Below the pieces are notes generated by a model that made no database searches, was not told the origin of the DNA, and saw only the letters and a program-made list of their open reading frames with translations. DNA of 64,000 nucleotides, taken from positions 1 through 64,000 of the forward strand of contig JAHHIL010000012.1 in the NCBI GenBank assembly GCA_019358975.1, read 5' to 3'. This document shows, one piece after another, positions 25,706-46,783 of the stretch. This DNA comes from Trichocoleus desertorum ATA4-8-CV12 (GTDB taxonomy: Bacteria > Cyanobacteriota > Cyanobacteriia > FACHB-46). Position 1 is the first letter of the stretch. Each line of letters starts with the position of its first letter. The translations under genes were made by a program, and so were the position numbers.

Positions 25706-25890
25706 CCAGAATTGGCAGGGCTGTTTCATACAACGAAAGCGTTCCGAACTAGGCCCCCCCAGCCCCCCAAATTTGGGGGGAACAACACTCAAAGTCCCCC
25801 AGAATTGGGGGATTTAGGGGGCAGTGCAGGGAGTTGAACCACATTTCAATTTTTCCTCTTGTAACATGAAACAGCCCTGCCCAGAATTGG
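25706..25890. mobile_element. MITE-like element with a GC-rich palindromic repeat inside
   Basis: A 15-bp terminal inverted repeat, GCAGGGCTGTTTCAT, bounds 25716-25880 (165 bp, non-coding). Both flanks carry the direct repeat CCAGAATTGG (25706-25715 and 25881-25890), consistent with a 10-bp target duplication. Inside, 25752-25822 is a G/C-run palindromic repeat of a kind widespread in cyanobacterial genomes. The target was itself part of such a repeat (runs of C before, runs of G after). A 9-10 bp duplication points to an IS4-like mobilising transposase, as inference. It separates the permease from the binding-protein gene. Confidence 0.65.
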
Positions 25891-44010: not shown

Positions 44011-44841
44011 GTGCCAGTGGCATTCAATCGGGCGACAGGTTATGGTCAGAGACAATTGCCAATAGCTTCTGACCTATCTCCTGACTTTATGTCTGATATT
44101 TCTGCGCCCGGTATCTTGGCAAATTGCGTTTCTGCGATCGCCCGCTCTGGAGTAGTCACCTTACCAACTAAAACTCTGCTACGGCTTGGAGGACTCACAA
44201 CCGCTGTATTGTTGGCTGTCACTTCTCCCTTAGTAGCTAGAGCCGAACTGTTTAACGGTCCTCTAGATCGCCTTCCGGTAGCAGAGCGAGTGGCGTTACG
44301 CAGCGGCAAGGTAGTGGTCACAGGAGATCAAGGCCGCTATGTGGCTAAAGTTTTGGTTAAAGCTCCTCCGGATGTGGTTTGGTCAGTGTTGACCGACTAT
44401 GCCAATCTGTCCAAATTTCTCCCTAATGTCGTTTCGAGCCGTGTAATTGAGGCGCAGGGTAATCGCAAAGTGGTGGAGCAGGTGGATGTGCGTCAGGTGT
44501 TGCTGGTTAGCAGGCGATCGCGTTTGCGCACCGAAAACATTGAAACTGCGAAAAAACGGATTGATTTTCGACTGCTGGAAGGCGATGTGAAAACGCTGCA
44601 AGGATATTGGCAAATTAATTCCGTAGCGGCTTATCCAGGGGCTTCTGCAACTCAAGTGCTGCTGACGCAAGATATTACGGCAGAACCCGGTGCAGGCACC
44701 CCCAAAGGGCTGTTCTACAACCTGTTTCGCAGTGGCTTGAATGAATCTCTCACTGCGATTAGCCAAGAAATCGGTCGGCGAACCTTGCAGGCAACAGCCC
44801 ACCATGCTCAACCGCAAACCTCCCCCACCCGTTCCTTCTGA
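44011..44841 (+). CDS. exported SRPBCC/START-like (cyclase/dehydrase) protein
   Basis: 276 residues from a GTG at 44011; the ATG at 44089 (26 residues shorter) is also possible. A hydrophobic segment (LRLGGLTTAVLLAVTSPLVARA) serves as signal peptide. The mature part is a polyketide cyclase/SRPBCC fold: VAKVLVKAPPDVVWSVLTDY, NLSKFLPNVVSSRVIE, LEGDVKTLQGYWQINSV. Such domains bind hydrophobic ligands; target unknown. Its end overlaps the methyltransferase start by 38 bases. Confidence 0.85.
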   Translation: MPVAFNRATGYGQRQLPIASDLSPDFMSDISAPGILANCVSAIARSGVVTLPTKTLLRLGGLTTAVLLAVTSPLVARAELFNGPLDRLPVAERVALRSGKVVVTGDQGRYVAKVLVKAPPDVVWSVLTDYANLSKFLPNVVSSRVIEAQGNRKVVEQVDVRQVLLVSRRSRLRTENIETAKKRIDFRLLEGDVKTLQGYWQINSVAAYPGASATQVLLTQDITAEPGAGTPKGLFYNLFRSGLNESLTAISQEIGRRTLQATAHHAQPQTSPTRSF

Positions 44842-46783
44842 TCCTTCTGCCACAGATGACGCAAGGACACTACAACTGCCCATTGGGGTTTGTTACACAC
44901 CTACGGCAGTTGTGGATTACATGGTGGAAAACACAGTCGGGCGGCTGCTAGTAGATAAAACGCCTCAACAGTTATTGGGCAATCTCCGCATTCTTGACCC
45001 TGCTTGTGGCGAAGGCATTTTCTTGCTCCGAGCCTATGCCTACTTATTGGCTTGGTATCGCGATCGCTACATCAACGCTTACGAAAGCGGAAACAAACTA
45101 ATCACAGAATTGCCGCTGCAACAAGCGAACGATGGGATTTGGGAGTTAGCGATCGCGGAACGGTGGCGGATTCTGTGCGAGCACATTTATGGCGTGGATA
45201 TCGATGCTCAGGCAGTTGAGCAGGCTCGGCGGTGCCTATTGAGAATAGCTGGCCCCCCTAGCCCCCCAACGCTGGGGGAAACAGGAGTTCTAAGGTTTGT
45301 AGACTATCCTCCCTGTGCACATGCTTTAGATCGGCTCCCCCCAGCATATAGCCCTAGCGGGCATACCAGAAAAGCGGGTTGGGGGGGCAAAACCCAGCGC
45401 TACCAATTTGATTTGGAGAACAACCTTAAGTGTGGCAACGCCATTATTGGTGAGGCACTGGGCGATCGCTCCCCTTCGTCCCTGGGCAGCTCTAATCAGG
45501 CTTTTAACTGGCAAGTAGAGTTCCCAGAGGTGATGCAGGGGGGAGGGTTTGATGTGGTGATTGGCAATCCGCCCTATGTGGATTCGGAGTGGATGACCGA
45601 GCACCTTCCTGATTGGCGGCACTACTGTACACAACACTATCAAGTCGCTTCAGGCAATTGGGACTTGTTTTGCGTGTTTATTGAACAAGCGATCGCCCTA
45701 TGCAAGTCCCACGGTTTAACCAGCTTGATTGTTCCGAATAAGCTAGGGTCGGCCAGTTATGCCGCTCAAGCTCGTCAGCTTTTAGCCGTCCAGAATCAAC
45801 TTTTGACAATCCGCGATTACTCCAAGGTGCCAATCTTTCGAGTTGCGGTTTATCCCATCGTTTACGCGGCTCGAAAACAACCGCCAGACTTAACCTCACA
45901 GGTGCAGTACGAACGCATGGAGGTAGCTAGCAACAGTGCGATCGCTCCCGCAACTTGTCAATGGCTAGATTACCAGCGTTATTTCTGGCAGGCAGAGAAA
46001 CCGTGGCGATTGGGTGCTAGCTTGCAGCAGGCAGAGTTGTGCGATCGCTTGCAGTCCCAGTTTCCGCCCTTGTCTGCGGTGGCTGAAGTTTTAGGGGCAG
46101 CAACCGTGGGAGAAGCCTATGCCATGCAACCATTGATTGCAGATGAGGCTTGCCCCCAAACCACTGACCTGAAGCTGATCAATAGTGGCACCATTGACCG
46201 TTATTGTGATCTGTGGGGGCACAAGTGTCTACGCTATTTGGGCCACGCCTATCGCTATCCGATTATTCCAGCAAACCAGCATTCTCACTTACCACCCAAG
46301 CGACAACAGCAAGCTCGCCAACCCAAAATTATTGTGGCTGGCATGACCCAAGTTTTAGAATGTGCCGTGGATGTTGCAGGAGCTTTCTTGGCAGGAAAAT
46401 CGACTGTGATTATTTTCACGTCTCTGAATTTGTATTACCTCTTGGCGCTTTTAAATAGTAAGTTAATCACCTTTTACTACCGCAACTTATATGGAGGAGA
46501 CTGCCTCAAAGGGGGCTATTTACGAATTGGGCCGCCACAATTGCGATCGCTGCCCATTTGTTCCGCTTTCGACTCGTTATGTCCTCAGCCGCAGCAGCAT
46601 TTAGTGGCCCTAGTGGAGCGTTTGTTATCTCTCCAGCAACAGTTACTAATAGCCGAGGCTGGGGAGGAACGCCGAAATCTACAGCAAAAAATTTGTGTCC
46701 TTGAAGGAAAAATTGACCAATTCGTTTACGACCTTTACGGACTCACTGCTGATGAACAACGGCTCATCAATCAAGCTGTATAG
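44804..46783 (+). CDS. N6-adenine DNA methyltransferase with TaqI-like specificity domain
   Basis: 659 residues. SAM motif I is RILDPACGEGIFLLRAYAY (65-71 core), the catalytic motif IV is DVVIGNPPYVDSEW (NPPY at 255-258), and the C-terminal half resembles the TaqI/Eco57I-type target recognition domain (GGDCLKGGYLRIGPPQLRSL). Type IIG enzymes of this plan carry an N-terminal PD-(D/E)XK nuclease; here only about 30 residues precede the methylase core, so it is an orphan methylase or a remnant of one. Residues 150-195 are translated repeat DNA (separate entry). The upstream gene overlaps it. Confidence 0.87.
   Translation: MLNRKPPPPVPSDPSATDDARTLQLPIGVCYTPTAVVDYMVENTVGRLLVDKTPQQLLGNLRILDPACGEGIFLLRAYAYLLAWYRDRYINAYESGNKLITELPLQQANDGIWELAIAERWRILCEHIYGVDIDAQAVEQARRCLLRIAGPPSPPTLGETGVLRFVDYPPCAHALDRLPPAYSPSGHTRKAGWGGKTQRYQFDLENNLKCGNAIIGEALGDRSPSSLGSSNQAFNWQVEFPEVMQGGGFDVVIGNPPYVDSEWMTEHLPDWRHYCTQHYQVASGNWDLFCVFIEQAIALCKSHGLTSLIVPNKLGSASYAAQARQLLAVQNQLLTIRDYSKVPIFRVAVYPIVYAARKQPPDLTSQVQYERMEVASNSAIAPATCQWLDYQRYFWQAEKPWRLGASLQQAELCDRLQSQFPPLSAVAEVLGAATVGEAYAMQPLIADEACPQTTDLKLINSGTIDRYCDLWGHKCLRYLGHAYRYPIIPANQHSHLPPKRQQQARQPKIIVAGMTQVLECAVDVAGAFLAGKSTVIIFTSLNLYYLLALLNSKLITFYYRNLYGGDCLKGGYLRIGPPQLRSLPICSAFDSLCPQPQQHLVALVERLLSLQQQLLIAEAGEERRNLQQKICVLEGKIDQFVYDLYGLTADEQRLINQAV
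45251..45388 (+). repeat. GC-rich palindromic repeat inserted in frame in the methyltransferase gene
   Basis: The segment begins GGCCCCCCTAGCCCCCCAA and ends GGGTTGGGGGGGC, the same boundary style as the repeat at 25752-25822. It is 138 bases, exactly 46 codons, with no stop. It encodes Pro/Gly-rich peptide (GPPSPPTLGETG ... HTRKAGWGGK) between motif I and motif IV. Confidence 0.75.

Follow-up and report, generated by a model that had tools for sequence, protein, structure and literature searches.

The methyltransferase gene and its palindromic insert

The analysed window, a stretch of 64,000 nucleotides from the genome of Trichocoleus desertorum ATA4-8-CV12 (hereafter the own genome), carries on its + strand a gene whose product is predicted to be an Eco57I-type adenine methyltransferase with a TaqI-like specificity domain. 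The match to PF07669 scores 118.3 bits against a curated cut-off of 25.3, and the reading frame is free of stop codons with both DPACGEG and NPPY intact. We take the former to be motif I and the GVDID sequence to be motif II of such enzymes. The longest ORF begins at 44741, and its 5' stretch (44741-44841) overlaps an upstream ORF at 44011-44841. As a result of this overlap, and because one of the two congeners used for comparison (G001; the other is G002) has a stop codon between the two candidate starts, just after 44741, the ATG at 44804 is the likelier start.

Within this gene lies a stretch of 138 bases, translated as GPPSPPTLGETGVLRFVDYPPCAHALDRLPPAYSPSGHTRKAGWGG, that is open throughout the ORF and is built from the following elements, given together with a related intergenic copy:

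44741-46783, + strand: longest methyltransferase ORF, 680 codons
44804-46783, + strand: predicted adenine-specific DNA methyltransferase (Eco57I-type, TaqI_C specificity domain; PF07669, E 4.8e-34; PF12950, E 3e-9)
45251-45388, + strand: composite palindromic insert, 46 codons, in frame; a dispersed repeat, absent in homologues outside the genus
45251-45278, + strand: left palindrome, type A, GG-CCCCCC-TAG-CCCCCC-loop-GGGGG; 43 copies in the genome, and at the methyltransferase site of G002 and G001 too
45279-45332, + strand: spacer separating the palindromes; 21 of 53 sites differ from G002, a strong divergence
45333-45388, + strand: right palindrome, a partly decayed reversed type A that contains a nested hairpin unit; top genomic matches at E 1.6e-15
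45347-45372, + strand: nested short repeat TATAGCCCTAGCGGGCATACCAGAAA, a 24-nt unit (ends accurate to about 2 nt either way) with the hairpin GCCC-TAGC-GGGC; 14 copies in the own genome, 4 in G002 and 2 in G001
25714-25881, no strand assigned: intergenic copy with the same core in a longer MITE-like unit, inverted ends GGCAGGGCTGTTTCAT at 25714-25729 and 25866-25881

The insert thus reads as palindrome A, a spacer and then A reversed, the latter holding the nested unit, and its RNA is predicted to form a single long hairpin (-66.4 kcal/mol, z -3.5 relative to shuffled sequences). A sequence-only reading of the window had reported a stop-free, in-frame repeat of 46 codons here. Its coordinates proved exact and the frame open, its residue numbers 150-195 are correct when counted from the ATG at 44804, and its placement between motif I and NPPY can be narrowed to the interval that follows GVDID and precedes the NLKCGN motif. 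A single-sequence structure prediction of the methyltransferase reached a pLDDT of 36 and was set aside, and comparison with solved structures yielded weak partial matches only, on which the insert could not be placed. Neither a protein search of genome contigs nor an alignment search of viral contigs returned relatives of the enzyme.

A modular repeat family

Searching the own genome with the 138-base insert gave 29 matches at E values up to 0.001, in which the matches of the right part (bases 83-138) fall at other places than those of the left part (bases 1-45), with E values, self excluded, down to 1.6e-15 and 4.0e-7, respectively. Pattern searches agree with this: the left core GGCCCCCCTAGCCCCCCAA occurs 43 times in the own genome with up to two mismatches, compared with no occurrence of a backwards control, which together with the matches bears out the repetitive nature claimed for the insert. 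A shorter A core with up to one mismatch was found 52 times in the own genome, 26 times in G002 and seven times in G001 (the control twice, both in G002), and the copy numbers of the nested unit listed above were obtained with up to three mismatches. When copies are compared side by side, palindrome A has the consensus GG-CCCCCC-TAG-CCCCCC-loop-GGGGGG-AAC. It is often followed, within about 70-100 bases, by another palindrome that runs the opposite way, either B, ending in GGGGGATTTAGGGGGC, or A reversed, and in some copies the nested 24-nt unit, near AAAGCCCTATCGGGCATCCCAGAA, is found within either palindrome. Judged from these sequences, the family can be described as a modular element.

The intergenic MITE-like unit at 25714-25881 is intact and flanked by two + strand ORFs; an additional A core is located nearby, at 25889. 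The insert in the methyltransferase had been assigned to the same type as the repeat at 25752-25822, which holds for the left palindrome that both share, whereas the spacer is diverged and the right palindrome of the methyltransferase copy carries the additional 24-nt unit. By sequence comparison, the copy in the gene is therefore a variant of the intergenic repeat and not an identical copy. The outer ends GGCAGGGCTGTTTCAT, which were sought and not found at the methyltransferase copy, have 18 matches in the own genome versus none in the congeners, a difference suggesting that the outer unit is probably recent in the own genome and the core older. The same palindromic core was also observed inside several differing outer inverted-repeat units (e.g., at loci L095, L122 and L123), as if the core were common to, or inserted in, different MITE families. 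The own genome further carries HIP1-like GCGATCGC sites.

Presence and absence at the methyltransferase site

Fourteen homologues from other genera (L012-L025) were collected, 12 of which could be scored, as L016 stops before the region and L023 gave no ORF. All 12 lack the insert residues in the alignment; in their place, the GVDID helix is followed by a short variable loop and an N.K.GN-like motif. An insert common to distant genera, which would have refuted the sequence-only reading, was thus seen in none of them. Within the genus, G002 carries the complete insert plus 36 extra in-frame nucleotides upstream of it, while G001 has the left palindrome only, with two thirds of the insert missing, and the frame is intact in both. 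The G001 enzyme also has a changed motif I (DLACGEG). Neither a target-site duplication nor an exact empty site could be read at this position in the three species, because all of them carry at least part of the element.

In-frame copies in other genes of the genus

All places returned by the pattern searches in the three genomes were fetched and merged into loci. A locus was counted as internal when the element was spanned by an ORF (measured from stop to stop, 150 codons or more) that extended at least 25 codons beyond it in both directions. By this measure, the own genome has 49 loci (16 internal and in frame, two terminal, 31 outside ORFs), G002 has 29 (eight, three and 18) and G001 has eight (five, none and three). 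The outside loci fall between ORFs in a simple ORF layout made without homology, which makes no claim that frame-breaking insertions are absent. The length of the A-B core modulo 3 does not separate coding from non-coding copies (the coding copies in L089 and L091 having been counted as non-coding) and is not used as evidence here.

The insert in the methyltransferase is therefore not a lone case, as the own genome holds 15 other in-gene, in-frame loci. Pfam domains were matched in all 16 of its internal ORFs. Six of the sites lie on contig C40, outside the window, five of them NRPS-type sites within adenylation domains or next to them and one in a PKS reductase region; the remaining hosts are CoaX, a two-domain glycosyltransferase, MenE, CobN, an MmeI-like protein, an epimerase, RluA, a TPR/glycosyltransferase protein, a hydantoinase fusion and the methyltransferase itself. 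In the NRPS/PKS cluster of contig C40 (L089-L091), the six in-frame copies are distributed over six ORFs and occur in both orientations. Many in-gene elements are located between domain matches, and those of the methyltransferase, MenE, CobN and two adenylation domains lie inside one. CoaX and MenE exceed their NCBIfam equivalog cut-offs despite the insert.

Comparison of orthologues shows how such copies differ between species. In CoaX, a type III pantothenate kinase, the element occupies one site in all three species (L096 in the own genome, L163 in G001, L177 in G002), where it has decayed differently in each and is in frame in all. CobN of the own genome contains a full MITE-like copy with outer inverted ends, in contrast to the genes of G002 and G001, which are without it. 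For the glycosyltransferase (GT4) genes of the own genome and G002, as for the PKS genes of the own genome and G001, the difference at the nested unit amounts to exactly 24 nt, and the PKS pair shows one further difference of 18 nt; MenE orthologues differ by 3 nt.

Distribution beyond the genus

Of 291 genomes in the class, 67, with the own genus among them, contain palindrome A at up to two mismatches. In a sample of 10 copies from each of four other genomes of the class, 10 of the 40 copies were internal (two, three, none and five per genome) and two terminal. Three of the 10 internal ORFs are only 152-160 codons long and may be due to chance; six of the remaining seven have Pfam matches, including MenC and a UvrD helicase. 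These two hosts (L200 in genome G117 and L235 in G179) contain the palindrome within the gene, and MenE is a host in the own genus. The nested unit was detected in eight stretches of genome contigs, five of which belong to Leptolyngbyaceae, Oculatellaceae or Synechococcales records and one to Acaryochloris, where the same kind of palindrome surrounds it; the two stretches in other phyla look like chance matches.

Evolution of the insert and competing explanations

Between the own genome and G002, the 46 codons of the insert show a dN of 0.286 and a dS of 0.176 (dN/dS 1.62), with 13, 11 and 6 changes at the three codon positions, compared with a dN of 0.065 and a dS of 0.449 (dN/dS 0.15) for the remaining 634 codons. 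Outside the insert, each of the three species pairs gives a dN/dS of 0.12-0.15 (604-634 codons). The ratio of non-synonymous to synonymous changes differs between the insert and the rest with a p value of 2e-6 to 2e-5, depending on rounding. This significant contrast points to an enzyme that is maintained by purifying selection outside the insert and to an added peptide that is not constrained as protein and looks like filler, its dN/dS not being significantly above 1. At the DNA level, nine of the 85 sites in the palindrome arms differ, compared with 21 of 53 in the spacer (p 1e-4), and the nested unit is identical over its 26 sites. The conservation of the arms as DNA counts against simple neutral decay, which does not predict it. 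The arms may possibly be kept alike by homogenization at the DNA level, by reinsertion or by a role of the DNA or RNA.

We consider it very probable that a repeat inserted in frame into the gene of a maintained methyltransferase, whose product now carries about 46 additional, tolerated residues. The conversion of a repeat into peptide proposed by the sequence-only reading is supported by the absence of the insert in all 12 scorable homologues outside the genus, the frame kept in three species and the dN/dS of 0.15 in the rest of the gene; calling the enzyme "functional," as that reading did, goes as far as its motifs and the signature of selection. Recruitment of the peptide for the function of the enzyme, for example DNA binding by a Pro/Gly/Arg-rich arm, with preservation by selection on the protein, would account for the retention of the insert in both the own genome and G002 over a dS of 0.45 and for the near identity of the right arm, LPP.YSPSGHTRK, in the two. 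However, the dN/dS of the whole insert exceeds 1, G001 does without two thirds of it, the homologues of other genera do without all of it, and the conserved arms are the repeat's own DNA, common to intergenic copies, which makes recruitment improbable.

Two further explanations are each more improbable still. The open frame could be accidental and the methyltransferase a decaying pseudogene, a scenario to which the large hairpin, the absence of the right half in G001 and the altered motif I of that species would lend themselves; it conflicts, however, with the low dN/dS in the three species pairs, with the intact motifs and absence of stops in the own gene and with length changes in multiples of three that preserve the frame in all three species. 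Skipping or removal of the insert, by translational bypass or an intron-like process, would leave no peptide in the protein and might be favored by the strong RNA hairpin. A skipped insert would not need a frame, though, and the frame is kept at all 29 in-gene loci of the three genomes, which counts against this possibility.

Relation to known repeat families

That conversion of a repeat into peptide is "rarely documented," as the sequence-only reading put it, needs qualification, since it is on record for Rickettsia palindromic elements (RPEs), intragenic REPs and enterobacterial RU elements. RPEs of about 100-150 bp are described as lying in frame within many conserved protein genes and also between genes, and one host enzyme is reported as demonstrated to remain active (PMC2229807). 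The family described here resembles them in its many dispersed palindromic copies, both between genes and in frame within genes (49 loci in the own genome), and by this analogy the repeat would work like RPEs. The likeness is one of description: the element here belongs to another phylum, has C6/G6 palindromes with TAG between the C-runs, is modular with a nested 24-nt unit and includes NRPS/PKS modules among its hosts.

Intragenic REPs of the GTAG/CGTC families are short palindromes, single or oppositely paired, within and between genes (PMC3733652). Their hosts include UvrD-type helicases and pseudouridine synthases, and section 15 of that paper names no cyanobacterium among the species with intragenic REPs (PMC3733652). 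Short palindromes in and between genes, as well as UvrD helicase and pseudouridine synthase-type hosts, are shared with the present family, whereas the consensus drawn by eye, GGCCCCCCTAGCCCCCCAAATTTGGGGGGAAC, has no GTAG/CGTC tag at the base of its stem. A RAYT-mobilized REP was not adopted as an explanation, the tag being absent from the consensus.

The cyanobacterial SDRs of Elhai et al. 2008 are reportedly hairpin-forming sequences of 21-27 nt that are nested inside larger mini-elements. The nested unit agrees with this definition in its length of 24 nt, its hairpin GCCC-nnnn-GGGC and its location inside A or B palindromes; it differs in residing within translated genes, where it is present or absent as eight codons, and is set beside SDRs by description. 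SDR work on cyanobacteria is cited in PMC4390886. MITEs such as RU/ERIC and Correia elements are small, have terminal inverted repeats and in some cases form in-frame fusions (PMC2759123, PMC2229807), as is stated for some enterobacterial RU elements (PMC2759123). The present element is likewise small and has inverted ends on its longer copies (25714-25881, CobN), but the methyltransferase copy is without outer inverted ends and the core is common to copies with different outer sequences. Among the titles and opening lines of abstracts of open-licence papers, none described in-gene repeats of such kind in cyanobacteria, which is weak evidence of absence.

A model for insertion and its implications

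The most likely scenario is that of a small, non-autonomous element that inserts at many places, presumably moved by transposition in trans. Genes for Y1 transposases, the type that includes RAYTs, are present, with 12 matches to PF01797 in the own genome, five in G002 and three in G001. On average, about two of the six frames of the A-B core are open (23 cores scored as non-coding, two of which are actually coding), and it can therefore be estimated that about one in nine random hits in genes would keep the frame. The methyltransferase insert would have been retained because, by chance, its frame had no stop and its length was divisible by three. The left palindrome may have been the first arrival, or else the part kept in G001; the own genome and G002 also carry the right palindrome, its loop holding the nested 24-nt hairpin unit. 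The enzyme would tolerate the insert because the segment between GVDID and NLKCGN varies in length in the enzyme family, and copies landing in loops and linkers would generally survive and drift. We infer that the methyltransferase is active, the insert translated and the peptide a neutral passenger.

Only tentatively, and with more doubt than confidence, do we suggest a wider reading, in which a palindromic element that invades proteins is widespread among cyanobacteria. Its nested hairpin unit of 24 nt (eight codons) would move inside coding regions, adding short in-frame peptides to core enzymes and NRPS/PKS modules or removing them, with the arms kept alike by DNA-level homogenization or reinsertion while the peptide is free to drift. 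In the sources cited here, the descriptions of repeats inside translated genes concern chiefly Rickettsia, along with scattered REP and MITE cases. Annotation and structure prediction for proteins of these genomes, NRPS among them, should be read with the warning that they include repeat-derived peptide. The repeat would add new peptide to ordinary proteins, and a single genus offers matched orthologues with half or the whole of the element (methyltransferase), with and without it (CobN) and in pairs differing by the presence or absence of 24 nt. Consequently, how new peptide arises and drifts in working enzymes becomes directly testable.
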